Virus record (IMG/VR): IMGVR_UViG_3300011258_000481
Coordinates: 1 to 33,396 of that record
Length of the DNA: 33,396 nt
Reading direction: 5' to 3' (one strand)
Source of the DNA: a virus
A model generated the notes under the pieces. The model saw nothing but the letters and a program-made list of their open reading frames with translations, had not been told where the DNA came from and ran no database searches. Both the position numbers and the translations under genes were made by a program. Below are positions 413 to 31,553 of the stretch, in pieces (position 1 is the first letter of the stretch; every line of letters begins with the position of its first letter).

Positions 413-533
413 CTGAACTTCCTTTTTTAAAATGCAGTATAGAAAAAAGAATAAATATCATTAAACATGCATAAATGCACGATGATAGTTATGGCTAAGA
501 TAAGGTATAAGCTATTGTTTTTATGATGGAAAA
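413..533 (-). promoter_or_regulatory. leftward promoter with operator palindrome (468-479)
   Basis: The leftward strand carries TATACT (436-441), a good -10 about 24 bases before the ATG at 412, followed by a clear ribosome binding site. I see no strong -35. The palindrome TGCATAAATGCA (468-479) sits upstream and is one of eight TGCA-N4-TGCA sites in the window. A lone half-site TGCA (433-436) overlaps the -10. Nothing else is seen between this gene and the att site. Confidence 0.5.
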
Positions 534-581
534 TGGTGGAGCGTACTGGGATTGAACCAGTGACCCCTACAATGTCAATGT
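534..581 (-). other. attP: attP: 3' half of a tRNA-Val(GAC) gene
   Basis: Read leftward, this is the 3' part of a tRNA: anticodon loop TTGACAT (578-572, anticodon GAC), anticodon-stem 3' strand TGTAG, variable loop, T-arm ACTGG-TTCAATC-CCAGT, acceptor strand ACGCTCC, discriminator A and CCA (534-536). The 5' anticodon-stem strand (TAACA) no longer pairs fully, so identity to the host gene should end near 580. There is no 5' half of the tRNA. Phage integrases commonly use tRNA 3' ends, and the integrase gene ends 37 bp away. The core restores an intact host tRNA on integration. Confidence 0.8.
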
Positions 582-617
582 TACTTTCGCTTACCTTATC
601 TGTATGATTTTGTTTAT

Positions 618-1577
618 TTATTTCCATGGCATTAGCTTCGCTGTGTCTGCTGTGTGTTCGTTGGATACATCAGCGTAACGCATGACCATGCGTTCAGATG
701 ACCAACCCCCTAATTTCATTAGAGCTTTTAGATTAGCGCCATTCATCATGAGAGTTGAGGCCCAATGATGCCGCCAATCATGTATGGTAAAGTCAAATAC
801 TTCTGCATGAATGCATGCTGTGCGGTGAACGCTACGCAAGTTTTGGGGCTTGGCGTAGCGTTCACCTTGGCTGTTGAGAAACAAATAGTCACGGTCGGAC
901 AGATGTTGGAGGGCATCTGCAACGCGGGGATGGAGGTGGACAACGCGTCTTCGACCATTCTTTGTTTTCTCTAACAGCATTGTACCGTTGTCGAAACTGA
1001 TAAACCTGTTACGCAAGTTAAGCGCCTCCCCTACCCTGATGCCTTGATAAGCTAGAGTAATGAATAGAGGTCTGATAAAATCTGGATAGGCTGACAGCAA
1101 TTGTTCTTGCTTCTCGTAGCTGAGAAACCTGATGCGGTCATCGGCTTGTTTGTTTTTATCTAATGTATGTGTAATCCCTGCATGGCTCATAATAGATATG
1201 AGTGCGCCGCGTACTCTATTTATATAAGAAGGCTTACAAGAATAAAGGTGGCGTTTCTTATATTCTTTCCACACATCATTAGTGATGTCATTTATATTGA
1301 GAGCTGCAAATTCTAATTTGAAACGGCGCGCAAAGTATCTGTCTGTTTCATTGCGAGGTGTAACAGCAAGCCAATCATCAACGACTGTAATGAATGGCAA
1401 CACTTTCGTGCCGCCACTCATATCATTTACGATTGCGTTTTCTACATATCGGCAGACTGTTTCTGCTTGCTTGCGTGTAGACTGTCCTGTAGTGCGCCGG
1501 ACTTTAACCACTCTGTCACCAATGGTGACGGTGCCTCTGATGTGATATATGTCTTTTCTTTTATAGATGGAGAGCAT
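618..1577 (-). CDS. int: tyrosine-recombinase integrase
   Basis: Site-specific recombinase of about 319 residues that should join attP to the host tRNA-Val. The C-terminal catalytic domain shows Arg in AYQGIRVGEAL, Lys in the TKNGRRR beta-hairpin, H-x-x-R in IHDWRHHWAS, Trp in LGGWSS and the nucleophile Tyr in MVMRYADVS. The N-terminal part (residues 1-60) is an Arg/Lys-rich arm-binding-type domain. The start at 1577 has AAGG upstream; an in-frame start at 1622 would extend into the excisionase and lacks support. The first 136 bp overlap the excisionase gene in another frame. It is the last gene of the leftward early operon and abuts the att site. Confidence 0.95.
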   Translation of the reverse strand: MLSIYKRKDIYHIRGTVTIGDRVVKVRRTTGQSTRKQAETVCRYVENAIVNDMSGGTKVLPFITVVDDWLAVTPRNETDRYFARRFKLEFAALNINDITNDVWKEYKKRHLYSCKPSYINRVRGALISIMSHAGITHTLDKNKQADDRIRFLSYEKQEQLLSAYPDFIRPLFITLAYQGIRVGEALNLRNRFISFDNGTMLLEKTKNGRRRVVHLHPRVADALQHLSDRDYLFLNSQGERYAKPQNLRSVHRTACIHAEVFDFTIHDWRHHWASTLMMNGANLKALMKLGGWSSERMVMRYADVSNEHTADTAKLMPWK

Positions 1578-1732
1578 GTCATCGCCTTCTGATATTCTTG
1601 ATACTGTTCTTTTGTGAACCATCTGGCATGGCCTAGCTTACAATAGCTAAGACCATGCTCTTGAATGAGATTGCGAAATCTATATTTAGACATTTTAAGC
1701 TGAAGCGCGATGTCACTAAAATGGTATATCAT
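1442..1732 (-). CDS. excisionase-like HTH protein
   Basis: Small protein (96 residues) whose first 55 residues look like a MerR/Xis-type winged helix: MIYHFSDIALQLKMSKYRF, then a basic helix and HARWFTKEQYQEYQKA. Excisionases of this kind bend DNA and direct the integrase toward excision. The start at 1732 has GAGGAG seven bases upstream. It overlaps the preceding gene by 17 bp and the integrase by 136 bp; the last 45 residues therefore come from DNA also coding for the integrase N-terminus and are probably not conserved. Assignment rests on size, fold appearance and position next to int. Confidence 0.65.
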   Translation of the reverse strand: MIYHFSDIALQLKMSKYRFRNLIQEHGLSYCKLGHARWFTKEQYQEYQKAMTCSPSIKEKTYITSEAPSPLVTEWLKSGALQDSLHASKQKQSADM

Positions 1733-2153
1733 CAATAGGCTCCTCATTTACAACAGGTGCAGGTGCAGGTGCCATAGCATTAGACGCTACTGGCGGCGCA
1801 CCATCTTCCGGCGGTATCCACAAACTCATATATGAATTGCCGGCGGCTGATGTGTTCTTGAATCCTTGCAACCGCTGATTGCCATAGCTACCAGAATAGT
1901 CTGCTTTGGCATCTGGCTTTGTGTTTTCAAACATGATGCCAACTTCCTGATAGATTTTAAAAGTTTTGCCAGCTTTGGTTTCTGTTTTTAACAGCAAAAC
2001 ATTTGGGTTATATTCTGTATCATCAGGCTTGCGTGTCCATTGAGCAGAATTGATTGTGCCGCTTAATGTGGGTGCGCCGAGCTTGTCATAGTCCCCGTCT
2101 TTGATGGGGAATGCACTGCCACGGTTGACATCCATTACATATTTATCACTCAT
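1716..2153 (-). CDS. SSB-like protein with acidic DDIPF tip
   Basis: 145 residues. The body (residues 1-115) has strand-rich stretches (APTLSGTINSAQW, NPNVLLLKTETKAGKTFKIYQ) compatible with an OB-like fold, though I cannot match it to canonical SSB. The end is decisive: a Pro/Ala-rich linker (APAPAPVV) followed by NEEPIDDIPF, the tip by which bacterial SSBs recruit replication and repair proteins. Its position beside ERF-like and exonuclease genes fits single-stranded DNA handling during recombination. Its ATG overlaps the ERF stop codon (TAATG). Role as an SSB is inference from tail and context. Confidence 0.6.
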   Translation of the reverse strand: MSDKYVMDVNRGSAFPIKDGDYDKLGAPTLSGTINSAQWTRKPDDTEYNPNVLLLKTETKAGKTFKIYQEVGIMFENTKPDAKADYSGSYGNQRLQGFKNTSAAGNSYMSLWIPPEDGAPPVASNAMAPAPAPVVNEEPIDDIPF

Positions 2154-2638
2154 TAGAAAGATTCCTTATCTTCTGGTGGAGTTGTTGTTGGGCGTGTTGG
2201 TTTAGCAGAAGCGGCGTTACCGTCGTCGTCTTCTGATGGCAGGCCAAACGCAGATTGTAAGCCATATCTTTTAGCGTAGGTAATACCTGACCCCATCTTC
2301 TGCGGGTCATTATTATCTTTAGACCGAACAGGACATGGGCTGGTGCGCTTCTCACCAGTGGGTGCATGAACAATAGTAGTGTTCACCACTTGAATGATGT
2401 TGCCTTCCAGTACAATGAGGTCGAGTGGCTGGCTGAAATACAAACCAAACTGATTGGCTTGTGTTGCCGCTTCCATCACTGCTTCAAGAGTGGCATATGT
2501 TGAACGGAAGTGGGGGTTATTGCCTGACTTCTTTGCAGATACAGACAGCTTTTGAAATGCCAGCATTGCCTTATCAAAGGTGTCGGGCATTTCATTTTGT
2601 GCTGGTGATTCCAGCTTTGTTACATTAGTCTTCGACAT
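2153..2638 (-). CDS. erf: ERF-family single-strand annealing protein
   Basis: 161 residues resembling the ERF recombinase family (P22 Erf type): an N-terminal helix (FDKAMLAFQKLSVSAKKSG), the typical FRSTYATLEAVMEAATQANQ segment, LYFSQPLDLI, and the SGITYAKRYGLQSAFGLPSEDDDGNAA motif near residues 117-144, which is the family hallmark. ERF proteins anneal complementary single strands and help circularise or repair phage DNA. The exonuclease just upstream would provide the single strands. The C-terminus is a Thr/Pro-rich disordered tail. The leader holds AACAGGATAGGAA, also found before the gene at 6760. Confidence 0.85.
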   Translation of the reverse strand: MSKTNVTKLESPAQNEMPDTFDKAMLAFQKLSVSAKKSGNNPHFRSTYATLEAVMEAATQANQFGLYFSQPLDLIVLEGNIIQVVNTTIVHAPTGEKRTSPCPVRSKDNNDPQKMGSGITYAKRYGLQSAFGLPSEDDDGNAASAKPTRPTTTPPEDKESF

Positions 2639-2661
2639 AACAGATTCCTATCCTGTTAGGA

Positions 2662-2681
2662 GGGGTGGCTTACGCCGCCCC
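2662..2681 (-). other. hairpin over the exonuclease stop codon
   Basis: GGGGTGGC (2662-2669) pairs with GCCGCCCC (2674-2681) around a four-base loop that contains part of the stop codon of the exonuclease gene. There is no T-run, so it is not a standard terminator. A very similar stop-codon hairpin with the same GGCGTAAGCC core lies at 7945-7966. Confidence 0.45.
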
Positions 2682-3458
2682 TTCGTTTATTGAGATGCGG
2701 CATGCACCGCGCTTGTCACGTTTGATGGTAAGCAAATCGCAGAACACTTCGCGTTCATTGTCTTGAACCATTGAGCGTAATTCTTTTTTGATATTTTCAT
2801 GCGTCTTAGCTGTGTGTGATGTGTTCACAAAGTCATGTGCAAGATTCACAAACTCATTGTCTTGATTAGCATCACGGGCAACAAGCCCATTGATGTTCAC
2901 GCTAGACCAATTGATTTTCTTTGCGCTGTAGTTATCAGGCTCTATGCCATCACGCACCATGCACCAGAAAGACCACACTTCATTATGCACTTTCTGCCAA
3001 TAGTCATGATTGTAATCTACAACTACAAAGTCCCATGTGTTGCCAAAGATAACAGACAGATAACATTTCTTAATCTCATGCACCCTCATATACAGATGCA
3101 TCTGAGGCATGTAGCTATCTAACATTTGTGTCATCGTGCGCGCATTACTGGTGTGCTTGCACTCGACAACAAAGTGATTGCCTTCTTCATCTTCTGCTAG
3201 CGCATCAACACGGGCTTGATAAGGAACATCATCAATTGTTTTTGTAGGTAAAGATTCTGGGTGAGAGAGTGATAGCCCTGTCTGTTGCACCAGCCAGTCT
3301 AAATTAAACTGCTCAGTGTATGTGCCAAGATTGACATTAAACAGGTGGCTTAAATCTTCTGACTCTTTGCGCCCCGTTTTGACCAGCCATAGCTCATGCC
3401 AGTCGCCCTTCATAATAGAATAGAGGTCACTGCCTCCAATAAAACCTGTACGTTTCAT
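2670..3458 (-). CDS. YqaJ-like PD-(D/E)XK exonuclease
   Basis: 262 residues counted from ATG 3458, chosen because AGGAG lies upstream with an eight-base spacer; the longer frame to 3482 lacks this. The order of motifs fits YqaJ/lambda-exonuclease-type nucleases: FIGGSD near residue 6, LGTYTE with Glu49, RVDALAED with Asp85 and VVECKH with Glu99 and Lys101, the metal-binding and catalytic set. Such enzymes chew one strand of linear DNA to feed an annealing protein, here the ERF-like gene directly downstream. The pair should act as the phage recombination system. Two operator-like palindromes lie just upstream. Confidence 0.85.
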   Translation of the reverse strand: MKRTGFIGGSDLYSIMKGDWHELWLVKTGRKESEDLSHLFNVNLGTYTEQFNLDWLVQQTGLSLSHPESLPTKTIDDVPYQARVDALAEDEEGNHFVVECKHTSNARTMTQMLDSYMPQMHLYMRVHEIKKCYLSVIFGNTWDFVVVDYNHDYWQKVHNEVWSFWCMVRDGIEPDNYSAKKINWSSVNINGLVARDANQDNEFVNLAHDFVNTSHTAKTHENIKKELRSMVQDNEREVFCDLLTIKRDKRGACRISINEGAA

Positions 3459-3469
3459 GTAATTTCTCC

Positions 3470-3523
3470 TGCATTTATACAAAATATATTATATTTGTTT
3501 ATGTCTTGCAATGCATTTATGCA
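3470..3523 (-). promoter_or_regulatory. paired operator-like palindromes, 42 bp apart
   Basis: TGCATTTATGCA (3512-3523) and TGCATTTATACA (3470-3481, one mismatch in the half-site) lie 42 bp apart immediately upstream of the exonuclease gene. The A/T-rich stretch between them (AAAATATATTATATTTG) could hold a leftward -10 element. The right-hand site lies inside the last codons of the upstream gene. The spacing is the same as in the pairs at 5529/5571 and 7702/7744, which argues that one protein binds all three cooperatively. Confidence 0.55.
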
Positions 3524-4100
3524 GTTCATCAGACATTATTTTACGAGGCTTGGTCATCCATGCGATGTCGGCATCATTGATAAATTCTGCAAGCGAAGGC
3601 CAGAACTTTATGTTGCGCTCGATGTATCCGATAGCACGAATAACAATGTCGGCTGGATATTCAGCCAGTTTATTAGCTAGAATCTCACGCTTGGTTGCCA
3701 ATTGTTTTGCCCCAAAGGATTGCGGTATCGTTAGCACCATAGACATGACTGTAAGCCGTTGGTCTAATTCAGATACAGGCAATGGTATCATGCCTGTTTG
3801 CACTAGCTTGTAGGCTTTTATTAGGTTCTCTAAAGGTGGGTCGCCTTTGATGCTGTAAGATATAAGCTCAAAGTCTTTATTGTACCTACCTTCTAACCGA
3901 ACCAATGAACTCACTCCATCTTCTATCATGGTCGTCCGCTGAAGCGGACTGATAGTTTCGTCCTGCATTTTTTCGAGTGCTGCTTTTTGCACTGAAGGTG
4001 ATAGCGTTAGCGCACCACTTTCTATAGGCGGCGTCGAAGTTTGCGAACTTAGATCCATTTGCGATGTGGTGATTAACGAACTTAACGGTTTCAACGTCAT
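3489..4100 (-). CDS. hypothetical phage protein, 203 aa (overlaps upstream gene)
   Basis: Not firmly recognised. The C-terminal half contains KLAEYPADIVIRAIGYIERNIKFWPSLAEF, an arrangement I know from small phage replication-region proteins of unknown role. The chosen ATG at 4100 has AGGAG ten bases upstream (CAACAGGAG context, the same as the upstream gene). That start makes the first 215 bp overlap the end of the HTH gene in another frame. An internal ATG at 3935 would reduce the overlap to 50 bp but has a weaker ribosome site. No signal peptide or membrane segment. Its place between the HTH protein and exonuclease suggests a role in replication; this is inference. Confidence 0.7.
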   Translation of the reverse strand: MTLKPLSSLITTSQMDLSSQTSTPPIESGALTLSPSVQKAALEKMQDETISPLQRTTMIEDGVSSLVRLEGRYNKDFELISYSIKGDPPLENLIKAYKLVQTGMIPLPVSELDQRLTVMSMVLTIPQSFGAKQLATKREILANKLAEYPADIVIRAIGYIERNIKFWPSLAEFINDADIAWMTKPRKIMSDELHKCIARHKQI

Positions 4101-4506: not shown

Positions 4507-4547
4507 TAATTAAAAACTCCTGTTGCTCTTTGATGATATCACAGGAG

Positions 4548-4576
4548 TTGACAAAAGTATTGCATTAATGCAATAT
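4548..4576 (+). promoter_or_regulatory. rightward promoter with operator in its spacer
   Basis: TTGACA (4548-4553), exactly 17 bases, then CAATAT (4571-4576): a good sigma-70-type promoter facing right. The perfect palindrome TGCATTAATGCA (4561-4572) fills the spacer, extending to a 16-bp TTGCATTAATGCAA core, so repressor binding should block it. Genes to the right are read leftward, so the transcript is antisense to them or ends early at the hairpin at 4619-4659. The predicted start point is about 4583. Confidence 0.6.
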
Positions 4577-4582
4577 CCTACC

Positions 4583-4986: not shown

Positions 4987-5153
4987 CCGTAATGCTCCAT
5001 ACAATCTAAACACCACAATCCACCAGCCGCCGTTATAAGATACCAGTGAGTTATTGTTTTACAGTTCATGCATTTCGCAGGCTGACCCTTCTTGTCAGGC
5101 TTGCGTTGCTTTCTATATTTTTTCGGATATTTTAATCTGCGCGCCAAGAGCAT
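4824..5153 (-). CDS. small zinc-ribbon protein
   Basis: 109 residues. A basic N-terminus (KYPKKYRKQRKPDKK) precedes Cys28-x2-Cys31 and Cys48-x2-Cys51, a four-cysteine zinc ribbon with a 16-residue spacer, and then an HYGWEHLSAVREAI helix. The rest is Lys/Ala-rich and shares its DNA with the nuclease gene, so may be loosely constrained. The start at 5153 overlaps the upstream HTH gene by 41 bp and has only a weak ribosome site, suggesting translational coupling. Possibly a DNA-binding or homing-type accessory; exact role unknown. Confidence 0.65.
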   Translation of the reverse strand: MLLARRLKYPKKYRKQRKPDKKGQPAKCMNCKTITHWYLITAAGGLWCLDCMEHYGWEHLSAVREAIMKDGGANGSKAKASKPKGNRYLARWEVSGQVTLPSIPDTDDW

Positions 5154-5361
5154 CCAACCAACAAGAGAACATGAAACCAGATGGCACTCGCTTATGTTGC
5201 TCCCACTTGTGGATCAAAGACGATGTGCATCCGATGCGATGTGCTAATACTTCTTGACTATAACTTTTAGATTTCCGCAGATGTATTAGCTGGTCGACAA
5301 TTTCTTGCCAGCTATTCGTGTTGGCTTTGGGTTGTCGATAATGTGTAAGATAGGATTGCAT
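5113..5361 (-). CDS. XRE-family HTH protein
   Basis: 82 residues from ATG 5361 (AAGG six bases upstream). Residues around 18-65 form a typical XRE helix-turn-helix: WQEIVDQLIHLRKSKSYSQEVLAHRIGCTSSLIHKWEQHKRVPSG, with Q-E-V-L-A-H-R-I as helix 2 and SSLIHKWEQ as the recognition helix. It is a likely DNA-binding regulator, second in the operon controlled by the 5529 operator region. It overlaps the gene before it by 50 bp and the gene after it by 41 bp. Target DNA unknown. Confidence 0.8.
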   Translation of the reverse strand: MQSYLTHYRQPKANTNSWQEIVDQLIHLRKSKSYSQEVLAHRIGCTSSLIHKWEQHKRVPSGFMFSCWLDALGAQIKISEKI

Positions 5362-5515
5362 GTTCAACCTTTATTGCAGTTGAGTAACGCAAATCTTTTC
5401 CTGATAATGCCCTGTAATATGTAGATGTAGGCACGCCCGCATCTTTAAAAAAAGATAATAAAGACAGCCCTGTATTAGCACTGGCCTCATTAAGTTGTGA
5501 TAAATAAGTTTTCAT
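5312..5515 (-). CDS. Cro-like small HTH protein
   Basis: 67 residues from ATG 5515. The segment LSLLSFFKDAGVPTSTYYRALSGKDLRYSTAIKVEHAI reads as a compact helix-turn-helix of the Cro/CI type (helix 2 LLSFFKDAGV, helix 3 STYYRALSG). It is the first leftward gene opposite the repressor, the place of cro in lambdoid phages. No ribosome binding site is visible. An in-frame ATG at 5533 lies seven bases after a TATACT box, so the message may start at or very near an ATG (leaderless) and the protein could be six residues longer. Confidence 0.65.
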   Translation of the reverse strand: MKTYLSQLNEASANTGLSLLSFFKDAGVPTSTYYRALSGKDLRYSTAIKVEHAILSYTLSTTQSQHE

Positions 5516-5518: not shown

Positions 5519-5582
5519 TTGAACATAATGCATAATTGCAGTATATACAAGTTAGAATGGTGCTACCTTTTGCATTAATATG
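5519..5582. promoter_or_regulatory. divergent lysis/lysogeny control region
   Basis: Rightward: TTGAAC (5519-5524), 17 bases, TATATA (5542-5547), a good promoter for the repressor. Leftward: TATACT (5541-5546) overlaps it, with no convincing -35. The palindrome TGCATAATTGCA (5529-5540) sits in the spacer of the rightward promoter and just after the leftward -10, so one bound dimer would block both. A weaker copy, TGCATTAATATG (5571-5582), lies 42 bp to the right. This arrangement resembles the lambda right operator in function, though not in layout. Confidence 0.6.
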
Positions 5583-5603
5583 CCATTCACAAGGAGAGAT
5601 ATA

Positions 5604-5804
5604 ATGCACTATAACGCACTCAGTATTGCGGGTGATGCGGATTGGCCTTGTGCCCCTCCGCGGTTGGTGTTGTCTATAACCCACCAATTAAAATACAAAA
5701 CATGGAAAGTAAAATGGAAACTTTTGAACAACGCGCCATTCGTGTATGGATGCGTACTGTCATGGAGGAGAAAGGCTGGACCGCCAATAAATGGGCGGTT
5801 CTAG
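5604..5804 (+). CDS. possible upstream ORF of the repressor mRNA (66 aa)
   Basis: ATG 5604 has AAGGAGAG (5590-5597) six bases upstream, the best ribosome site on the rightward message. The frame runs to 5804 and overlaps the start of the repressor gene by about 90 bp in another frame. The product (Trp/Pro/Arg-rich end) looks like no family I know, and its last third is read from repressor DNA. It may be a translated leader that adjusts repressor synthesis by coupling. Alternatively, an indel has separated this start from the repressor frame. Confidence 0.3.
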   Translation: MHYNALSIAGDADWPCAPPRLVLSITHQLKYKTWKVKWKLLNNAPFVYGCVLSWRRKAGPPINGRF

Positions 5805-6283
5805 CTGGGACTTCTCCATCTAATATTACAAGATTTTTGAAGGGCAGTAAATTTACGCCCTCGTCTGCAACTGTAGCAAAATTAGCTTATGTAGCAGGGT
5901 CACATCCCTCGTTATCACGCAACGAAATTACAAAAGCTAATGTAAATTCCGTCACTGTGTACGATACAAAAATGAATCGTTTAGGAGTTATATCAGTGTT
6001 CGGTGTGACAGGTTCAGTTAAGGCTTACAAATTAGATAAAGATTTTTTGTCGTGCGATATGATGGCAAAGGATATTATTGTTGTGCGTGATGACAAAACA
6101 TTTAAAGCAAGTGATGTTGTTGCATTCACACATGATGATGAGATTGTGATCACAAAAGCTACAGATAAACAGTCTTTGTTTATGAGTTGTGATACAAATA
6201 ATATTCTAAATAAAAAAGATATGAAATTGCTGGGTCGTGTCGTCCAGATTATTAAGAACCTCGACGACACTGATATTATTTAG
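5714..6283 (+). CDS. CI-like prophage repressor
   Basis: 189 residues from ATG 5714 (GGAAAG four bases upstream; ATG 5702 is an alternative). The N-terminal 50 residues form an XRE-type HTH (MEEKGWTANKWAVLAGTSPSNITRFLKGSKFTPS). The C-terminal 100 residues follow the shape of a LexA/CI S24 domain (FLSCDMMAKDIIVV, KASDVVAFTHDDEIVITKATD), but the usual SMxP/GDSM serine motif is not clear; a Ser (LSCD) and a Lys (VITK) are present at roughly suitable places. The only rightward gene in the early half, it converges on the 6280 gene with a four-base overlap. It is the probable ligand of the TGCA-N4-TGCA sites. Confidence 0.75.
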   Translation: METFEQRAIRVWMRTVMEEKGWTANKWAVLAGTSPSNITRFLKGSKFTPSSATVAKLAYVAGSHPSLSRNEITKANVNSVTVYDTKMNRLGVISVFGVTGSVKAYKLDKDFLSCDMMAKDIIVVRDDKTFKASDVVAFTHDDEIVITKATDKQSLFMSCDTNNILNKKDMKLLGRVVQIIKNLDDTDII

Positions 6284-7701: not shown

Positions 7702-7755
7702 TGCATTATTGCACATATTTGTATCTAAAGAAACAATTGATACTGCATTAGTGCA
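7702..7755 (-). promoter_or_regulatory. paired operator palindromes upstream of the DUF932 operon
   Basis: TGCATTATTGCA (7702-7713) and TGCATTAGTGCA (7744-7755) lie 42 bp apart, both intact TGCA-N4-TGCA. On the leftward strand each is followed by GTAT (TGCAGTAT), as at the lysis promoter (31535-31550). A-rich DNA between them could hold promoter elements, but I cannot choose a clear -35/-10 pair. The location fits repression of the leftward DUF932 operon in the lysogen. Confidence 0.6.
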
Positions 7756-8683: not shown

Positions 8684-8721
8684 TTTGTGCGTTGACAGTG
8701 TGATTCTGTGAGTGACATATA
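8684..8721 (+). promoter_or_regulatory. late-type promoter before the terminase gene
   Basis: TTTGTGCGTTG (8684-8694) overlaps a consensus -35 TTGACA (8692-8697); CATATA follows after 18 bases (8716-8721). The same 11-mer recurs at 9773, 11876, 14054 and 17300, and close variants at 26859 and 31521. No TGCA-N4-TGCA site lies here. The small terminase ATG is at 8764. Confidence 0.6.
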
Positions 8722-8763
8722 GGGGGGGAATACAAGGGGGGGTTCTTGAATAGGTATGGATAG

Positions 8764-11507: not shown

Positions 11508-11948
11508 ATGTTAGCAGAGCTTGCCGCAATCAATGCGGCGTTCGCAATCATAAAGCAAACGGTTGCGAATGGCTCTGACTTAGCAAAAGCAGGGGGCGCT
11601 ATTGGTGACTTTGTATCTGCAAAAGACACACTCGAATCCCGTCATAGAAAAAAGAAAGCCTCACCTTTTGGTGATGAGCTTCAAGAATTTTTGGCACTGG
11701 ACGAAGTGAAGCGTAAAGAAGATGAGCTACGCTCTTATATGAATTTGTATGGGCGCGCGGGCATCTGGAATGATTGGGTCAAGTTCCAAGGACAAGCCCG
11801 CGTTGCCCGCCAGAAAGCACAAGAGAAAGCCAAGCGTAGACGCGCTCACTTAATAGAAACAATCGGCATTGCCTCTTTGTGCGTTGCCTTCATTTGTTTG
11901 TTCTGTGCATTTGCATATTGGATAGCACTAAAGAAAAGGTGGCTGTAA
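11508..11948 (+). CDS. small membrane protein, 146 aa
   Basis: The N-terminal half (LAELAAINAAFAIIKQTVANGSDLAKAGGAIGDFVSAKD) is a helical block found in many marine phage structural clusters. The middle is charged and helical, and residues 118-140 (TIGIASLCVAFICLFCAFAYWIAL) form one transmembrane segment followed by KKRWL. It could be a membrane-associated lysis or DNA-ejection factor, but no function is known to me. TAA overlaps the next ATG. An exact copy of the late promoter 11-mer lies inside it at 11876-11886. Confidence 0.7.
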   Translation: MLAELAAINAAFAIIKQTVANGSDLAKAGGAIGDFVSAKDTLESRHRKKKASPFGDELQEFLALDEVKRKEDELRSYMNLYGRAGIWNDWVKFQGQARVARQKAQEKAKRRRAHLIETIGIASLCVAFICLFCAFAYWIALKKRWL

Positions 11949-12112
11949 TGGCAGTAAATGCGGCTGGTAACTATACCAAACCTACAATGCGTAAAGCATT
12001 ATTCAATCGTATTAAGGCTGGGAATAAAGGTGGTAGCTCTGGTCAATGGTCAGCGCGTAAAGCGCAGATGCTTGCCAAAGCGTATAAGGCTAAAGGTGGC
12101 GGCTACCGATGA
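11948..12112 (+). CDS. small basic protein, 54 aa
   Basis: ATG 11948 overlaps the upstream TAA (TAATG). The product MAVNAAGNYTKPTMRKALFN and its KGGSSGQWSARKAQMLAKAY segment are a type repeatedly seen between marine podovirus terminase and structural genes; role unknown. Basic and Gly-rich, ending GGGYR. The frame can be extended to 11879, but that would overlap the membrane segment of the previous gene and is rejected. Confidence 0.75.
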   Translation: MAVNAAGNYTKPTMRKALFNRIKAGNKGGSSGQWSARKAQMLAKAYKAKGGGYR

Positions 12113-12354
12113 AACCTTCACAGCGTTCATTGCGTAATTGGACAAAGCAGAAGTGGCGTACCAAGTCTGGCAAGCCCAGCACACAAGGCCCAAAGGCTAC
12201 AGGTGAGCGATATCTGCCAGAAGCCGCTATTAAATCCCTCTCCTCTTCTGAATATGCCGCATCAACAGCCGCAAAACGCAAAGCTATTCGTGCAGGCAAA
12301 CAACATTCCAAGCAACCCAAATCAATTGCAAAGAAGACAAAAGCACACAGATGA
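12109..12354 (+). CDS. DUF5872-like basic protein
   Basis: 81 residues: PSQRSLRNWTKQKWRTKSGK, then TGERYLPEAAIKSLSSSEYAASTAAKRKAIRAGKQ and KQPKSIAKKTKAHR. I recall this arrangement as DUF5872, present in many environmental phages and giant-virus sequences, function unknown. Strongly basic, with a helical core. It overlaps both neighbours by four bases. Confidence 0.75.
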   Translation: MKPSQRSLRNWTKQKWRTKSGKPSTQGPKATGERYLPEAAIKSLSSSEYAASTAAKRKAIRAGKQHSKQPKSIAKKTKAHR

Positions 12355-12545
12355 CATTCCTACACACCATTAATAAAGATGAGCGCGCTATGTTGCGTAC
12401 CATTGTTAAGAAAGTTCACCTTGCTTATCACCCAGAACAATTTCAAACAGACCGTGAAGCAGACAAAGTAATAGCTGTTATTGGCCCAGAGATTGTTGAA
12501 CGTATGATTAAGTTCGGGAAAGATAACAAAGTTGACCAGCTTTAA
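12351..12545 (+). CDS. hypothetical protein, 64 aa
   Basis: Small helical protein (NKDERAMLRTIVKKVHLAYHPEQF, then IAVIGPEIVERMIKFGKD). Proteins of this kind sit just before the large terminase in marine podoviruses; no role is known to me. ATG overlaps the previous stop, and its last 14 bases overlap the terminase start. Confidence 0.7.
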   Translation: MTFLHTINKDERAMLRTIVKKVHLAYHPEQFQTDREADKVIAVIGPEIVERMIKFGKDNKVDQL

Positions 12546-14052
12546 ATACAAACCTGATGGGCAAATATTAAAAGACTTTATGAAGAGCGATGTGTTCTTC
12601 CGTGGATTGCGCGGCCCTGTTGGGTCGGGCAAATCTGTATGTTGCTGTGTTGAATTATTTAGACGCGCCTTACAGCAAAAGAAAACAGAGAGTGGTGTTC
12701 GTAAATCTCGTTGGGCTGTTATCAGAAACACCAACCCACAGCTACGCACAACCACAATAAAGACATGGCTTGATTGGTTTCCAGAAGAAGAGTGGGGCAA
12801 GTTCTTATGGTCTGTTCCTTACACTCATCACATCAAACGCAGTGACTTAGATTTAGAAGTTATCTTTCTTGCCCTTGATAGGCCAGAAGATGTGAAGAAA
12901 CTACTGTCATTAGAACTCACTGGCATTTGGATCAACGAAGCCAGAGAGATACCCAAGTCTATTATTGATGCCTGTACTATGCGTGTGGGGCGTTTCCCCT
13001 CTATGAAAGATGGGGGCTGTAGTTGGACAGGAGTAATAGCAGACACGAACGCGCCAGAAGAAGACCATTGGTGGCCCATCATGTCAGGCGAGATACCAGT
13101 GCCAGACCATATTCCAAAAGAAGAAGCAAGGATGTTAGTCAAGCCAGACAATTGGCAGTTCTTCACACAACCGCAAGGCATGAAAGAAACGAAGAACGAA
13201 GACGGCAATATAGAAGGATATGTTCCAAACGAGAGCGCAGAAAACTCAAAAAATATGAGAGCCGACTACTATCCGAATATCGTAATGGGCAAGACGAAAA
13301 GCTGGATAGACGTATATGTGATGAACCGCCTTGGGAGTATTAAAGATGGCAAACCCGTTTATGGCAATTTTGTTGCTGACATCCACGTATCGAAGGAAGA
13401 AATTCCGATTGCGGCAGGTGTGCCTGTTTATGTTGGCCTTGATTTTGGTCTTACCCCTGCTGGTGTTATAGCCCAGAAGGTAAGAGGCAGATGGTTGATA
13501 CTGCAAGAGCTTGTCGCTTTTGATATGGGTATTGTCAGGTTTGCAGAATTATTGCGGCAAGAATTAGCCTCACGCTATTCAACCAATGAAGTTATAATCT
13601 TTGGCGACCCCGCAGGTGACTTCCGCGCACAGACAGATGAGACAACACCCTTTCAGATATTGCGGGGGGCTGGCCTTAGTGCGCGCCCTGCCCCATCCAA
13701 TGATGTATCTTTAAGATTGGAATCTGTATCTGCACCTCTCAGCCGCATGGTTGATGGTCAGTCTGGTGTATTGATTGACTTTAGATGCCGTACAATTATC
13801 AAAGGATTTGAAGGCGGCTATCAATATCGCCGTATGCAAGTATCTGGTGAACGCTATGATGACAAGCCAGATAAGAACCACTTCTCTCACATTCATGATG
13901 CTGTTCAGTATCTAATGCTGGGTGCTGGTGAAGGCAGAGCCATCCTCAGTAATCAACAGCATGCTCCTAAACCATTTCAAGCCAGCACTAACTTCGATGT
14001 CTTCACCCGCAAACCTAAACAACGCAGACAAGGTTTATGGTCAAGAATGTAG
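12532..14052 (+). CDS. terL: terminase large subunit
   Basis: 506 residues; the DNA-packaging motor. The ATPase half has Walker A GPVGSGKS at residues 28-35, a Walker B-like GIWINEAREIP near 130, and a coupling segment VIADTNAP. The nuclease half has YVGLDFGLTPAG (first metal-binding Asp), VIIFGDPAGDFRAQ and the terminal HIHDAVQYLMLG. It begins with TTG (12532) inside the previous gene; no ATG fits the conserved N-terminus better. It is separated from the small subunit by about 3.4 kb. The type is the one I know from marine podoviruses with T7-like heads, not T7 gp19 itself. Confidence 0.92.
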   Translation: MTSFKYKPDGQILKDFMKSDVFFRGLRGPVGSGKSVCCCVELFRRALQQKKTESGVRKSRWAVIRNTNPQLRTTTIKTWLDWFPEEEWGKFLWSVPYTHHIKRSDLDLEVIFLALDRPEDVKKLLSLELTGIWINEAREIPKSIIDACTMRVGRFPSMKDGGCSWTGVIADTNAPEEDHWWPIMSGEIPVPDHIPKEEARMLVKPDNWQFFTQPQGMKETKNEDGNIEGYVPNESAENSKNMRADYYPNIVMGKTKSWIDVYVMNRLGSIKDGKPVYGNFVADIHVSKEEIPIAAGVPVYVGLDFGLTPAGVIAQKVRGRWLILQELVAFDMGIVRFAELLRQELASRYSTNEVIIFGDPAGDFRAQTDETTPFQILRGAGLSARPAPSNDVSLRLESVSAPLSRMVDGQSGVLIDFRCRTIIKGFEGGYQYRRMQVSGERYDDKPDKNHFSHIHDAVQYLMLGAGEGRAILSNQQHAPKPFQASTNFDVFTRKPKQRRQGLWSRM

Positions 14053-14053: not shown

Positions 14054-14090
14054 TTTGTGCGTTGTGGAGCATCTATGCATGCTCCTATAA
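14054..14090 (+). promoter_or_regulatory. late-type promoter with inverted repeat
   Basis: TTTGTGCGTTG (14054-14064) overlaps the -35 TTGTGG; CTATAA (14085-14090) follows after 17 bases. GGAGCAT (14066-14072) and ATGCTCC (14079-14085) form an inverted repeat in the spacer that contains AGCATCTATGCA, a one-mismatch operator half. It drives the portal-scaffold block beginning at 14115. Confidence 0.55.
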
Positions 14091-14114
14091 GCAGGAGACA
14101 GTTAGGAGTTCTAT

Positions 14115-26855: not shown

Positions 26856-26858
26856 TAA

Positions 26859-26891
26859 TGTGCGTTGATACCTGCATTTATGCATGATAGG
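26859..26891 (+). promoter_or_regulatory. tail-fibre promoter with operator
   Basis: AATGTGCGTTGATA holds a TGTGCG element (26859-26864) and -35-like TTGATA (26865-26870). The perfect palindrome TGCATTTATGCA (26873-26884) follows and GATAGG (26886-26891) is a possible -10, only 15 bases from the -35. The lysis promoter at 31521 has the same TGTGCG to -10 distance (27 bases) and also an operator. A repressor bound here would block initiation. Confidence 0.5.
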
Positions 26892-26899
26892 GGAACAGA

Positions 26900-28720
26900 A
26901 TGACAATTAGTTTAACAGATAATTCACCAAGAATAGCAGTTGATTTTGGCTCTGTAACACTGGGCCAAACTCATAAGAGCTTTACTGTGAGCTTTGAGTT
27001 CTTCGATGCGGCTGACTTGAATGTATATATCAATGGTACATTAAAGACATTAACAACTCATTACACTGTAACAGGCGGCAATGGTTCTACTGGCACAATT
27101 TCTCTTTCAACAGCAGGCACATCTGTTACAGATAAAGTTGTTATCACAAGAGATATTGCATTAGCTAGAACGACAGATTTTCCAACATCAGGCCCATTTG
27201 ATGTTACGTCATTAAACTTAGAATTAGATAAATTCATTGCTATCTCTGCTGATTTGAAAGACCAAGCTAGTCGCGCCTTACAGCTAACAGACTTTGATGT
27301 TAATGCTAATCTAACATTGCCTGCCTTAGATGACCGTAAAGGCAGAGTGCTTGCATTTAATTCTACCACTGGTGAATCTGAAGCTGGGCCTAGCATTGGT
27401 AATGTTTCAAGCATATCAGCAATAACAGCAGACATTAGTACATTAGCTGATATTGAAGATGGAACGGATGCTACAGATGCGATCCAAACCGTTGCAGGTA
27501 TATCTGGCAACGTTACTACGGTGGCTGGCGTCGCGGCTAATGTAACTACTGTTGCTGGGATATCTGGCAATGTTACAGCGGTTGCTGGTGATGAAGCAGA
27601 CATTGGAACTGTTGCAACAAATATTGCTAACGTAAACACTGTGGCTGGTATAGACGGTAATGTAACTACGGTTGCTGGAATACAGGCTAATGTTACTACT
27701 GTTGCTGGCATACAAGCTAACGTAACTACAGTTGCAAGCAATGATGCAAATGTTACGGCTGTTGCTGGTAATGCCGTAAACATTAACACTGTTGCTGGTC
27801 AGACTACTAACTTACAGAACGTAACCAACAATTTAACAGCTATTCAAAATGCAGCGCAGAATGCATCAAACGCATCTGCTGATGCGATAGCGGCGGCGGC
27901 TAGTGCTTCTGCGGCGGCAAACTCATTCGATGACTTTGACGACAAATACTTAGGCTCAAAGGCTCTGGCGGCTGACGCAAATCCAACAGTGGACAATGAT
28001 GGCAATGCATTAGTTACAGGTACGCTTTATTTCAATCAGTCTGCAAACGAAATGCGGGTCTACGATGGTGGCTCATGGATTGCCGCATCTTCTGCTGGCG
28101 GTGCATCTCTTCTTGAATATAAATACACAGCTACGGCTGGTCAGGTTACATTTACTGGTTCTGATGATGCGAGTAATATTCTCAGCTACACAGTTTCTAA
28201 TCTTATTGTAATCTTAAACGGTGTTATTCTTGAAAATGGTGGAGATTATACAGCCACTAACGGCTCAAGCATAGTGCTTACAACTGGTGCGACTGTAAAT
28301 GATGAGCTAAACATCATAGCATTTAAGTCATTCACTGTGGCTGACATGGTTAGCAAAACTAACGGTGGTACTTTCGGTGGTAACGTAGACTTTGGTGCTG
28401 GCATTGATGTTACAGGAAACATTACAGTTACAGGTACAGTTGATGGTCGTGATGTAGCGGCTGATGGCACAAAGCTAGACGCTATAGAGGCTTCAGCAGA
28501 CGTAACTGACACTGCAAACGTGACTTCTGCTGGTGCATTAATGACAAGCGGCGGAACTCTTACTGGTGCGCTTAACTTTGGTACATCTAAATGGAGCATC
28601 GAATTAGACGCAGGGGATAACGACCTAAACTTTAAGTATAACGGAACGACTGTATTCAAACTGGCAAGCAATGGGGCGGTAACATCTGCAAATGACGTTA
28701 CAGCGTTTGGCTCTCCGTAA
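26900..28720 (+). CDS. tail fibre protein (T7 gp17-type N-terminus)
   Basis: 606 residues. N-terminal 130 residues match the T7 tail-fibre anchor pattern (FEFFDAADLNVYINGTLKTLTTHYTVTGG, GTISLSTAGTSVTDKVVITRDIALARTTDF, LNLELDKFIAISADLKDQASRALQL), which docks to the tail. Residues about 197-305 are some eleven copies of a ten-residue repeat NVTTVAGIxx, likely a trimeric shaft. An Ala-rich helix (ADAIAAAASASAAA) and strand-rich distal domains follow. The last 47 residues are repeated in the gene at 29961-30320. ATG 26900 has GGGGAA upstream. TAATG junction to the glycine-rich tip gene. Confidence 0.88.
   Translation: MTISLTDNSPRIAVDFGSVTLGQTHKSFTVSFEFFDAADLNVYINGTLKTLTTHYTVTGGNGSTGTISLSTAGTSVTDKVVITRDIALARTTDFPTSGPFDVTSLNLELDKFIAISADLKDQASRALQLTDFDVNANLTLPALDDRKGRVLAFNSTTGESEAGPSIGNVSSISAITADISTLADIEDGTDATDAIQTVAGISGNVTTVAGVAANVTTVAGISGNVTAVAGDEADIGTVATNIANVNTVAGIDGNVTTVAGIQANVTTVAGIQANVTTVASNDANVTAVAGNAVNINTVAGQTTNLQNVTNNLTAIQNAAQNASNASADAIAAAASASAAANSFDDFDDKYLGSKALAADANPTVDNDGNALVTGTLYFNQSANEMRVYDGGSWIAASSAGGASLLEYKYTATAGQVTFTGSDDASNILSYTVSNLIVILNGVILENGGDYTATNGSSIVLTTGATVNDELNIIAFKSFTVADMVSKTNGGTFGGNVDFGAGIDVTGNITVTGTVDGRDVAADGTKLDAIEASADVTDTANVTSAGALMTSGGTLTGALNFGTSKWSIELDAGDNDLNFKYNGTTVFKLASNGAVTSANDVTAFGSP
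27490..27810 (+). repeat. 30-bp tandem repeats in the fibre shaft
   Basis: The coding sequence repeats a 30-bp unit translating to NVTTVAGIxx with variations (NVTAVAGDEA, NVNTVAGIDG, NINTVAGQTT). Third codon positions vary widely between units, so the repeats are old or under protein-level selection rather than a recent expansion. Copy-number changes here would alter fibre length. Confidence 0.75.
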
Positions 28721-28810
28721 TGGCGTTGCAAGGTAGTGGCGCAATTACCCTATCGAATATTCAGACTGAGTTCGGTGGGTCTAACCCTATTTCACTTAGC
28801 GAATACTATG
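28577..28810 (+). repeat. duplicated fibre-tip cassette, copy 1
   Basis: A direct repeat spanning a gene junction: the last 47 codons of the tail fibre plus the first 30 or so codons of the next gene. It matches 30177-30410. By eye the fibre-end parts share 38 of 47 residues and the next-gene starts 24 of 30. The 5' end of the match lies at FGTS codons. Confidence 0.8.
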
Positions 28811-29661
28811 ATGCTTCATCGGGAATACCTGCAAGCGGTGAGATAGATATATCTGATTTCTACGGAGCATCAGCGGCTATTACTGTTGAATATATGCTTA
28901 TCGCTGGTGGCGGTGGTGGTGCTTTTTATGGGGGTGCTGGGGGCGGTGCTGGTGGACTTTTATCTGGTTCATTTGATATTGCCAGTGGCGTATCCAAAGC
29001 CATCACTATCGGGGCTGGTGGTACTTCTTTTGTAGCCGCTAATAACTCCAACAATCACGGCGCTAATGGTACTAACTCAGTAATCGCAGGTGTTGGCACA
29101 GCCATTCGTGGCGGTGGTGGCGCAGGTGGTTTGAACTCAGGACGCAATGGACGTTCGGGGGGTTCTGGTGGCGGTGGACAAGGCCATCCGGGAACGGGTT
29201 CTGGGGGTGCTGGAACTTCTGGACAGGGCAATCGTGGCGGGAACGTAGTGAATGACTACCACGGCGGAGGCGGTGGGGGAGCAACTCAAGTCGGCGCAGG
29301 TGGAAACAATCCCAACGGCGGTAATGGCTCATCAGCTTTCTCAGCTTGGGGTGCGGCTACATCTTCTGGTGAAAACATCGGTGGCACTCGCTGGTTTGCA
29401 GGTGGCGGCGGCGGTTATAACCGAGATGCTACACACGGCGTAGGCGGTAAAGGCGGTGGGGGAGATTATGGCTCAAACTCTAACGGCATTAATGGCACAG
29501 GTGGCGGAGCAGGTGGTGATGGTGGAAACACGAAATCTGGCGGCAACGGTATTTGCCTGTTGAGATACGCAGGTTCACAGGTTTGCTCTGGCGGAACGGT
29601 CTATAGTTCGGGCGGTTATACCTACCACAAATTCACATCATCCGGCACATTTACAGGATAG
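28720..29661 (+). CDS. glycine-rich tail-tip/adhesin protein
   Basis: 313 residues. The first 60 residues (MALQGSGAITLSNIQTEFGG, then EIDISDFYGAS) are a module common in marine phage tail-tip genes and are repeated in the gene at 30320. The rest is exceptionally Gly-rich (runs of GGGG with Asn, Ser, Ala), ending in a strand-rich cap (ICLLRYAGSQVCSGGTVYSSGGYTYHKFTSSGTFTG). Such sequences can form polyglycine-II helix sandwiches, as in the gp38 adhesins of some T-even phages, that present variable loops to the host. Receptor recognition is thus likely, by inference. Confidence 0.75.
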   Translation: MALQGSGAITLSNIQTEFGGSNPISLSEYYDASSGIPASGEIDISDFYGASAAITVEYMLIAGGGGGAFYGGAGGGAGGLLSGSFDIASGVSKAITIGAGGTSFVAANNSNNHGANGTNSVIAGVGTAIRGGGGAGGLNSGRNGRSGGSGGGGQGHPGTGSGGAGTSGQGNRGGNVVNDYHGGGGGGATQVGAGGNNPNGGNGSSAFSAWGAATSSGENIGGTRWFAGGGGGYNRDATHGVGGKGGGGDYGSNSNGINGTGGGAGGDGGNTKSGGNGICLLRYAGSQVCSGGTVYSSGGYTYHKFTSSGTFTG

Positions 29662-29664
29662 GCT

Positions 29665-29964
29665 ATGGGATATTATGCAAAAGTTATCAACGGCACTGTT
29701 GAGGAAGTAATTGTAGCTGACCAAGACTTTATTAATACGCTTCCAGAAGAAGAAGATTGGAAGGCTTGTATTGAACTTACAGGTAACGGCTTTGTCTACG
29801 ACTATACAGACCAAGCCTTTTACCCACCACAACCGTGGCCTTCTTGGACGCTTAACAAAACACTGCGTGAGTATGAACCTCCAGTGCCATTCCCTGATGA
29901 CTTTAGCCTTATGGCTTATCATTGGGATGAAGATAATCTCCAATTTTTGAGGACAAATATATGA
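29665..29964 (+). CDS. tail-fibre-associated small protein, 99 aa
   Basis: The start MGYYAKVINGTVEEVIVADQ, then YDYTDQAFYPPQPWPSWTLNKT and PPVPFPDDFSLMAYHWDEDN, is a familiar layout in cyanophage and other marine phage tail regions, where it is annotated as hypothetical or fibre-assembly related. AGGAT lies before ATG 29665. The Pro/Trp-rich middle suggests a binding surface. It overlaps the next start by four bases. Role inferred from location only. Confidence 0.65.
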   Translation: MGYYAKVINGTVEEVIVADQDFINTLPEEEDWKACIELTGNGFVYDYTDQAFYPPQPWPSWTLNKTLREYEPPVPFPDDFSLMAYHWDEDNLQFLRTNI

Positions 29965-30320
29965 CAAAAGCAAGAGATATGGCAGATATTGTAGGCGGTG
30001 GCTTTGCCATTCCGTCAACATCGCTTGGCAACGCTGTGCCAGCAGATGGTTCGATAACTTCTGCGAAACTGGCTGTTGATGCTATTACTCCGTCTGCGCT
30101 TCCAGATGAGCTAGTCGTAAGCGATACGTCACCACAGCTTGGAGCTACGCTAGACACGAATGGACACGCTATTCAGTTTGGTACATCTGCTTGGACTATC
30201 GAACTTGATACAGGCGATAACGACCTTCTATTCAAATACAATGGAACAGCAGTCTACAAGTTAGCATCTAACGGAGCAGTCACTTCGGCAAACAATATGA
30301 CTGCCTTTGGTTCAGTCTAA
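29961..30320 (+). CDS. free-standing fibre-tip linker protein, 119 aa
   Basis: Starts MTKARDMADIVGGGFAIPST, then SLGNAVPADGSITSAKLAVDAITPSALPDE, segments typical of marine phage tail fibres. Its last 47 residues (from FGTSAWTIELDTGDNDLLFK) repeat the very end of the tail fibre at 26900-28720 with about 38 identities. It thus looks like a fibre end detached from a shaft. TAATG leads into the LamG-like gene exactly as the fibre leads into the glycine-rich gene. Confidence 0.7.
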   Translation: MTKARDMADIVGGGFAIPSTSLGNAVPADGSITSAKLAVDAITPSALPDELVVSDTSPQLGATLDTNGHAIQFGTSAWTIELDTGDNDLLFKYNGTAVYKLASNGAVTSANNMTAFGSV

Positions 30321-30410
30321 TGGCTTTACAGGGTAGTGGCGCAATCAGTTTCGCCAATATACAAACTGAGTTCGGTGGCTCTAACCCAATAGGTATAAAT
30401 GAGTATTACA
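30177..30410 (+). repeat. duplicated fibre-tip cassette, copy 2
   Basis: Second copy of the cassette at 28577-28810, 1.6 kb downstream and in direct orientation, again crossing a TAATG gene junction. Recombination between the copies would remove the glycine-rich tip and the 99-residue gene and join the main fibre to the LamG-like tip. Confidence 0.8.
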
Positions 30411-31195
30411 GAAATGGTGCTAACGTAACTGGCAATAACACCAGCGTTCCTACGTCTGGTACGATAGACATGGCTGACTTCTATGGCACTTCGCTATTAC
30501 AGCCTTATGAAACGACAGACCTGTTTGGTGATAACTCTGGTGTGTTCTTATTCAGACTGAACAACACCACAGCAGAAGCACAAGGCAATGCAGGGGCTAT
30601 GTCTGCGTTTGGTGGTAGTGGAAGTATTAACTATTCTACTGATACACCCAATAGCAGTAAAATCAGCCACAGCTTTAATCACCTCACAAACGGTAGGTCA
30701 TTGCGAACAACAAATACTGGTTCTGTCAACGATAGTTCGTTCACGATATCAATGTGGATGAAGAGTGCTTTCCACGGCAGTAATGATTTTGCGATGTTTC
30801 AGTTTGACGATGGAAGTAATGTGAATGGTAGCTGGTTTGGCAAGGCCAACCACGGTGCTGAAGTAGGTTATTTCCCAAGAAACACCAGCGGCGGTGGTGG
30901 TTTTAATAGAATGTCTAATTCTTCTAGTCAGCTTTTATTAAACAACACATGGCAACACTTTATGTTTACCGTCAACGGGTCTGGTAATAGTTCTAATTTT
31001 TATATTGATAATGGTTTGCGAGGCAAAACCGTAGGTTCAAACACCCCACCAGAAACAGAATCTAAATTCTTACTTGGTATTCGCCGTGATTCAAATGCAG
31101 GTCAGCGTAAGAACTGGAAGGTGTGTCAAGTTCGCCTATTCAACAAAGTGCTTAGTTCTTCTGAGAGAAGCACAGTTTATAATGAATTGCTTTAG
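30320..31195 (+). CDS. LamG-like tail-tip protein
   Basis: 291 residues. The start (MALQGSGAISFANIQTEFGG) and TIDMADFYGTS are paralogous to the glycine-rich tip gene. Residues about 75-290 form a concanavalin/LamG-type beta-sandwich (LRTTNTGSVNDSSFTISMWMK, then NNTWQHFMFTVNGSGNSSNFYIDNG and NWKVCQVRLFNKVLSSSERSTVYNE). Such domains bind sugars, so this is a second, different receptor-binding candidate. It closes the fibre operon; the next ATG is ten bases downstream after AGGAG. Confidence 0.75.
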   Translation: MALQGSGAISFANIQTEFGGSNPIGINEYYRNGANVTGNNTSVPTSGTIDMADFYGTSLLQPYETTDLFGDNSGVFLFRLNNTTAEAQGNAGAMSAFGGSGSINYSTDTPNSSKISHSFNHLTNGRSLRTTNTGSVNDSSFTISMWMKSAFHGSNDFAMFQFDDGSNVNGSWFGKANHGAEVGYFPRNTSGGGGFNRMSNSSSQLLLNNTWQHFMFTVNGSGNSSNFYIDNGLRGKTVGSNTPPETESKFLLGIRRDSNAGQRKNWKVCQVRLFNKVLSSSERSTVYNELL

Positions 31196-31204
31196 GAGAA
31201 CGTC

Positions 31205-31372
31205 ATGACAGAAACATATGAATGGGATTATTGTCATCAATGTGAACATCAGACAGTGTTTTGCAAAACGTGCAGTGCTTCTGTTTGCTTTTACTTAGAC
31301 GCTGACAACGAAGACTTTACTTGTGATGCCACTTGTCCAGCTAGAGTAGCTTATGCGGCAGGGCAAGACTGA
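31205..31372 (+). CDS. cysteine-rich small protein, 55 aa
   Basis: ATG 31205 with TTTAGGAGAACGTC in front. Eight cysteines: CHQC, FCKTC, VC, TCDATC. The spacing C-x2-C, C-x2-C would suit one or two zinc sites or, less likely inside the cell, disulphides. Acidic otherwise. TGA overlaps the next ATG (TGATG). No family recognised; it sits between fibre and lysis genes. Confidence 0.65.
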   Translation: MTETYEWDYCHQCEHQTVFCKTCSASVCFYLDADNEDFTCDATCPARVAYAAGQD

Positions 31373-31512
31373 TGAAGGATGCACACACAGACATAGCTAT
31401 TGCAGGCGGCGGCATCTCTGCTCCTCTTTGGTTGCCTGCTCTTAATGAGTGGATCGCATTAGTTCTTGGTGTGCTTTCTATCTTATATGTATTGCGTAAG
31501 CTATTAAAGTAG
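31372..31512 (+). CDS. small membrane protein, holin-like (46 aa)
   Basis: M-K-D-A-H start, a Gly-rich turn (AIAGGGISAPLWLPALNEW) and one clear transmembrane segment (IALVLGVLSILYVLRKLLK) with a positively charged C-terminus inside. Size and position before another lysis protein and the endolysin suggest a holin or antiholin. Translationally coupled to the gene before it. Not a firm family match. Confidence 0.6.
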   Translation: MKDAHTDIAIAGGGISAPLWLPALNEWIALVLGVLSILYVLRKLLK

Positions 31513-31520
31513 TTACAAAA

Positions 31521-31553
31521 TGTGCGTTTTGTAATGCACTAATGCAGTATAGT
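31521..31553 (+). promoter_or_regulatory. lysis promoter with operator
   Basis: TGTGCGTTTTG (31521-31531) corresponds to the late motif with a changed end. The palindrome TGCACTAATGCA (31535-31546) is followed by the -10 TATAGT (31548-31553). The next gene's ATG is at 31562, so a start seven bases after the -10 would give a message with almost no leader. The -35 is poor, suggesting activation in the lytic cycle and repression in the lysogen. Confidence 0.55.

Follow-up and report, generated by a model that had tools for sequence, protein, structure and literature searches.

A palindromic operator family dispersed over early and late promoters of a temperate marine podovirus-like phage, and the CI/LexA-fold repressor that probably reads it

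The 33,396-base viral record IMGVR_UViG_3300011258_000481 (IMG/VR; the window, taken here at its full length) represents a temperate podovirus-like phage in which the palindrome TGCA-N4-TGCA recurs close to gene starts in both the early and the late regions, raising the question of which protein reads it and what is controlled by it. The palindrome, for which the sites of relatives give the symmetrised 18-bp consensus TACTGCATTAATGCAGTA, is very probably the operator of the phage's own immunity repressor, a protein of the CI/LexA fold encoded at 5714-6283, with copies scattered across early promoters and some late ones. Early, replication, tail-fibre and lysis genes would probably be silenced directly by this repressor during lysogeny. 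An earlier note on this DNA had proposed such a family, marking the early operons, the promoter of the repressor itself and two of the late promoters, and the proposal is supported by conservation of the sites in relatives.

Operator sites in the window

Nine copies of the motif are present in the window, at 468, 804, 3512, 4561, 5529, 7702, 7744, 26873 and 31535. All eight copies listed in the earlier note were recovered, and a ninth, inside the integrase gene, had been missed. The approximately 0.5 sites that the note expected by chance is too low because TGCA is itself common (214 copies in the window); dinucleotide shuffles give a mean of 2.6 copies, with none of 100 shuffles reaching nine, and a Markov simulation of the whole window gives a probability of 0.001 for nine or more. 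Six sites lie outside coding cores versus 0.38 expected, with a maximum of three in 2000 simulations, and N4 yields the most TGCA pairs among spacers of 0 to 24 bases. When an 18-bp matrix built from other phages only is applied, the nine intact sites of the window rank first. The intact and imperfect copies retained for discussion are as follows.

468..479, operator TGCATAAATGCA, at a distance of 62 nt from the start of the leftward gene 164-412, adjoining an attachment site-like (att-like) sequence and the integrase end
804..815, ninth copy of the motif, in the integrase coding sequence
3470..3481, imperfect operator TGCATTTATACA, one mismatch, 42 bp from 3512
3512..3523, operator TGCATTTATGCA, upstream of the gene for the yqaJ-type nuclease, lying inside the 3' end of the gene before it
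4561..4572, operator TGCATTAATGCA, ahead of the gene for the replication initiator
5529..5540, operator TGCATAATTGCA, between the repressor gene and a Cro-like gene
5571..5582, degenerate copy with three mismatches in the eight fixed bases, exactly 42 bp from 5529
7702..7713, operator TGCATTATTGCA, ahead of the DUF932 gene
7744..7755, second operator TGCATTAGTGCA, 42 bp from 7702
26873..26884, operator TGCATTTATGCA, within the late promoter of the tail-fibre gene, 21 nt from its start
31535..31546, operator TGCACTAATGCA, within the late promoter of the lysis gene, likewise 21 nt from the start

The placement of the eight listed sites at or next to gene starts was confirmed, the distance from operator centre to the nearest mapped start being 17 to 62 nt (62 for 468, 60 for 3512, 61 for 4561, 20 for 5529, 17 for 7702, 59 for 7744, and 21 for both 26873 and 31535). 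The copy at 804, with 0.25 expected at its matrix score, is kept only in the near-identical record G031 among the records examined, and is probably a chance occurrence. Four imperfect copies had also been put forward, of which the one at 3470 is likely a real site, with a matrix score of 13.0 bits (1.2 expected by chance); it alone of the imperfect sites comes near the intact ones. The copy at 5571 lies outside the top matrix list and survives only as a degenerate positional remnant: record G030 carries an intact site (5919) 42 bp from its site at 5877, the same offset as 5571 from 5529, and 5571 may thus be a decayed operator. The remaining two were rejected as noise, 9802 for its three mismatches in the eight fixed bases and absence from the top matrix list, and 14068 for a matrix score of 6.8, at which 14 sites are expected by chance.

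Conservation in repressor-carrying relatives

Used alone as a query, the window's repressor recovers only near-identical relatives; a five-member alignment recovers 80 viral-contig loci encoding repressor relatives of 31-99% identity, and the palindrome stands just upstream of the repressor gene in nearly all of them. All 256 four-base words at spacers of 0 to 20 (5,376 inverted repeats) were compared in 28 loci whose repressors are less than 75% identical. TGCA-N4-TGCA is the top inverted repeat, with 165 copies versus 27 expected, followed by its own overlapping forms. Outside coding cores, where 124 of the 166 sites in these loci are found, site density is 10.6-fold higher.

The search of related phages for the same sites, suggested in the earlier note, shows them recurring at the same promoters and orthologous genes, at fixed distances, down to approximately 31-55% repressor identity. 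All seven sites of G030, whose repressor is 46% identical, match window positions. The position of the site at 468 is shared with G030 (778) and G031, that at 3512 is syntenic with sites in G030, G436, G446, L200 and L212, and that at 4561 with sites in G030, G031, G436, G437 and G438. The operator at 31535 is intact in G031, G436 and G437 and is found before the corresponding genes of others. In general, the operator centre is separated from fibre and lysis starts by 21 nt, and from the start of the Cro-like gene, in almost every phage, by 19-20 nt.

Relatives with or without a homologue of the 5714-6283 protein (repressor-carrying and repressor-less) differ in their content of the motif, with 0.12-0.46 sites/kb in the former versus 0-0.16 sites/kb, near the chance density, in the latter. 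An integrase is encoded in 34 of 39 repressor-carrying records versus 4 of 49 in a broader set, all four of which belong to the repressor lineage.

The repressor and the Cro-like protein

Two divergent genes flank the operator at 5529:

5714..6283, positive strand, repressor gene, encoding a Cro/CI-type helix-turn-helix (HTH) and a LexA-like C-terminal domain without the conserved catalytic serine
5312..5515, negative strand, Cro-like small HTH protein (HTH5312), with a recognition-helix-like PTSTYYRAL helix

The AlphaFold2 model of the repressor (mean predicted local distance difference test score, pLDDT, 90.5) shows a helical HTH domain at the N terminus and a beta domain at the C terminus, and its best Foldseek matches include a lambda-186 hybrid repressor (E = 3.3e-7), LexA and lambda repressor. 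The family profile matches LexA (E = 1.3e-5), and HTH_26/HTH_3 domains were found in 13 of 26 family members; the window's own protein reaches no Pfam cut-off and has only weak PHROG matches. No homologue was found in 50,697 phage records, nor any match in isolates. Across the family the HTH is near-invariant and the C-terminal part diverges, a pattern that a common operator for all members would predict. The catalytic serine of LexA aligns with a non-serine, mostly glycine, consensus and its lysine with a hydrophobic residue, making RecA-stimulated self-cleavage of the repressor appear unlikely.

The Cro-like gene is divergent from the repressor gene, its promoter bears the operator in all 22 repressor-carrying records (22/22), and it is kept in repressor-less relatives. 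The operator at 5529 is readable within the 17-bp spacers of both TTGAAC-17-TATATA (rightward) and TTGTAT-17-TATGTT (leftward), overlapping two putative promoters. The repressor/Cro-like intergenic region of many relatives (e.g., L320, L331, L335, L356 and L379) also contains a second palindrome, TTGYGCAA, approximately 13 bp from the operator centre, which is perhaps the site of a second regulator or a -35 region. Between the operator and the repressor start, a small open reading frame with an APP-containing stretch reaches or overlaps that start in the window (5580-5804) and in L306, L311, L313 and L328, and is a possible leader peptide.

Paired sites and a proposed mode of repression

Neighbouring intact sites lie 8, 26, 31-32, 34-35 or 41-42 bp apart, with none at 36-40 bp and with clusters at 31-32, 34-35 and 41-42 bp. 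The doublets of the window are all spaced by exactly 42 bp, both members being intact at 7702/7744 and one partner degenerate at 3470/3512 and 5529/5571. Three and four helical turns correspond to 31.5 and 42 bp and would place dimers on one face of the DNA, with the 34-35 bp class falling outside this rule; the phasing suggests that the repressor may bind operator pairs cooperatively.

From the sites, their over-representation, positional conservation and phasing, the fold of the repressor and its co-occurrence with the motif, a scheme of binding, repression, cooperativity and Cro-like function can be proposed. A repressor dimer would bind the 18-bp symmetric site by means of the TSPxNITRFL helix of its conserved HTH. 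Operators in or beside promoters, either single or in helically phased pairs, would bring the replication/recombination operon, the divergent repressor/Cro-like region, the DUF932 operon and the att-side gene under its control and, in many members, also tail-fibre, lysis, portal-operon or capsid late promoters. Initiation at every operator-bearing promoter would be blocked in a lysogen, such that some late genes may be silenced directly, beyond the mere loss of early activators. The operator at 5529, readable inside two overlapping, opposed putative promoters, would provide both autoregulation and control of the Cro-like gene, whose product probably binds the same early operators during lytic growth.

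Late promoters and the TGTGCGT box

Two late promoters of the window combine the operator with a conserved TGTGCGT box, and a further box of the same form follows the terminase gene:

26859..26867, positive strand, TGTGCGTTG box of the fibre late promoter
31521..31528, positive strand, TGTGCGTT box of the lysis late promoter
14056..14064, positive strand, TGTGCGTTG box after the terminase gene, without an intact operator

On the positive strand, boxes occur at 8686, 9775, 14056, 26859 and 31521, and also at 11878 and 17302; TGTGCGTT is found seven times on this strand versus 0.75 expected and once on the negative strand. The boxes stand right after terL and before terS, the fibre gene and the lysis genes, are kept in repressor-less relatives, and in the TGTGCGTTG form follow the terminase stop codon in the majority of 80 relatives. 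The box may serve as a late-activator site or be an unusual kind of promoter element. Reading these promoters as TTGNNN-17-TANNNN was abandoned since the fibre and lysis promoters misfit that spacing, and TGTGCGT is therefore treated only as a conserved box.

In 12 of 15 repressor-carrying records, the operator follows the box of the fibre gene after a gap of seven bases, versus none of 11 repressor-less records (Fisher 5e-5), several of the 11 keeping the TGTGCGT box without the operator. In repressor-carrying phages, operators are also found at promoters of the lysis genes and the portal operon, as well as at capsid promoters in three records. The earlier suggestion that a single repressor may silence the entire prophage finds no support in the late boxes at 8686, 9775 and 14056, which have no intact operator.

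Several observations weigh against the proposed scheme. The presence of the repressor changes approximately six times on the terminase (TerL) tree, and its association with the fibre operator there comprises only about three supported independent contrasts, none contrary, so that tree-corrected significance is out of reach and the association is not significant on the tree. Late operators are missing from some repressor-carrying phages (G447, G454 and G467), and three repressor-less records (G011, G024 and G033) keep sites, mainly at early promoters, indicating that the sites serve another protein as well, probably the Cro-like one. Generic sigma-70 scans find promoters no more numerous than chance, and the placement of promoters consequently rests on conserved spacing rather than on mapped starts. 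A generic terminator scan was uninformative.

Two of the box regions have features of their own. At 8686-8724 of the window and upstream of terS in repressor-carrying loci, TGTGCG is followed directly by TTGAC(A), approximately 18 bp, (C/G)ATA(A/T)A and then a run of G, an element that looks like a strong unrepressed terS promoter. Downstream of terL (14056-14092), the window has another inverted repeat (GGAGCAT-CT-ATGCATGCTCC) where many relatives carry the operator, and L004-L006 have GTTGCTTT...AAAAGCAAC at this spot, hairpins of varying sequence occupying one place.

Alternative explanations

The sites could instead be primarily operators of the small Cro-like protein (5312-5515), with the large repressor not the main binder. 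Its gene starts 20 nt from the site at 5529, its PTSTYYRAL helix resembles SPSNITRFL of the repressor, and HTH5312 persists together with sites at its promoter and at yqaJ in the repressor-less G011, G024 and G033. However, seven other repressor-less relatives with HTH5312 (G034, G040-G043, G046 and L255) have no intact site at its promoter, and sites at the fibre promoter are confined to records in which the repressor is present or of unknown status; use by both proteins fits these data better, and the Cro-like protein as principal ligand is unlikely. That the palindrome is a positive promoter element bound by an activator, as its position at promoters and beside the TGTGCGT boxes of late ones might suggest, is a good deal less likely, as repressor-less relatives keep the box without the palindrome, and at 5529 and the repressor-region promoters the palindrome lies between putative -35 and -10 elements, where binding would block polymerase.

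The earlier note had compared the sites with the stoperators of L5-type phages, which would block elongation along transcription units, and the dispersed, mostly intergenic sites and single repressor do recall that system. Symmetric palindromes can have no orientation, sites 17-62 nt from gene starts suggest control of initiation, and the repressor model has one HTH and a LexA-like C-terminal domain without the second DNA-binding domain described for stoperator-binding repressors (PMC9283540); on symmetry, promoter position and protein fold the comparison fails, and this explanation is slightly less probable again than an activator site. A chance excess of TGCA, or the site of a host factor, can draw on the abundance of the tetramer and the 2.6 sites expected by chance, but is scarcely credible given how over-represented the palindrome is, its intergenic placement, its conservation at orthologous promoters of relatives, its occurrence together with the repressor, and the near-chance density in repressor-less relatives. 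An operator of the phage's own repressor, probably shared with the Cro-like protein, accounts best for the palindrome.

Genome organization and relatives

The window's two ends adjoin each other in the near-identical record G031 (11794-12392 and 12394-12993), indicating that the window is an essentially complete genome opened at an arbitrary point. The left third holds a leftward early block encoding the integrase, SSB-like and ERF-like proteins, a YqaJ-type nuclease, the replication initiator, two small HTH proteins and a DUF932 protein, from which the repressor gene is divergent; rightward structural and lysis genes fill the right two thirds (the names SSB, ERF, lysis and structural are a reading of sequence and synteny). 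Two further early genes are:

618..1622, negative strand, tyrosine integrase
5113..5358, negative strand, second small HTH protein (HTH_31/HTH_3)

The att-like sequence at 533-580 resembles a tRNA 3' end on the reverse strand and is common to G030 (94%) and G459 (87%); in a search for the host, no copy of it was found among 385 genomes from the class to which a Rhodobacterales metagenome-assembled genome (MAG) belongs. Bacterial matches of TerL are MAG contigs of mixed taxonomy. Many short repeats coding for NVTTVAGI-type units are present in the tail-fibre gene (27480-27800), and an Rfam search gave no matches. In record G446 (loci L391-L393), a 58.6-kb contig carries two tandem late regions of approximately 89-94% identity with one early region between them, representing possible tandem prophages or a two-strain assembly.

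The closest isolate is Pelagibacter phage EXVC031P Hodr, which is alike in its terminase (67.6% identical) and structural gene order; it differs in that searches for an integrase, a repressor homologue and a TGCA-N4-TGCA site in it found none.

Known systems and significance

The predicted system resembles lambda/434-type CI with OL/OR in its HTH and LexA-like C-terminal domain, symmetric operator, divergent Cro-like gene and phased operator pairs. It differs in the non-conserved LexA-type catalytic serine and in operators that, rather than forming two clusters (OL and OR), are dispersed singly or in pairs over at least five promoter regions, late ones included. One motif at many promoters over the genome is the pattern of dispersed-operator repressors of the P1 C1 kind, in which one repressor serves 22 widely dispersed operators (PMC8546580). 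The likeness is one of distribution: P1 operators are asymmetric 17-mers, unlike the symmetric sites here, and P1 late genes are under the activator Lpa, whereas some late promoters here carry the operator themselves. Mycobacteriophages L5 and Bxb1 likewise have dispersed sites for a single immunity repressor (binding here being predicted), but each of their stoperators is an asymmetric 13-mer that is oriented with transcription and recognised by a monomer carrying two DNA-binding domains (PMC9283540, PMC6550527), in contrast to the symmetric 12-18-bp palindromes at promoters described here. The SPbeta master repressor MrpR acts on a repeated element, SPBRE, in promoter regions over the prophage (PMC10516654), a similar distribution of sites; MrpR, however, has a tyrosine-recombinase fold, and its 15-bp motif is unrelated to this palindrome.

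The repressor family and its operator constitute a predicted, sequence-defined immunity system for a temperate marine phage group of which no cultured temperate member was found among the 50,697 phage records. It is an even call whether a broader pattern holds in this large, uncultured family of temperate marine podoviruses, in which the repressor may silence late promoters (tail fibre, lysis, portal operon and capsid) directly through operators next to the late box, passage between temperate and lytic lineages being recorded as gain or loss of late operators while the boxes persist; with no LexA-type self-cleavage serine, induction would have to proceed otherwise than by RecA-stimulated cleavage. 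The motif offers a means of recognising temperate members, predicting shared immunity and testing the gain and loss of operators at late promoters and, because repressor-less relatives keep the promoters without the operators, the group offers a natural experiment on lytic/temperate switching.

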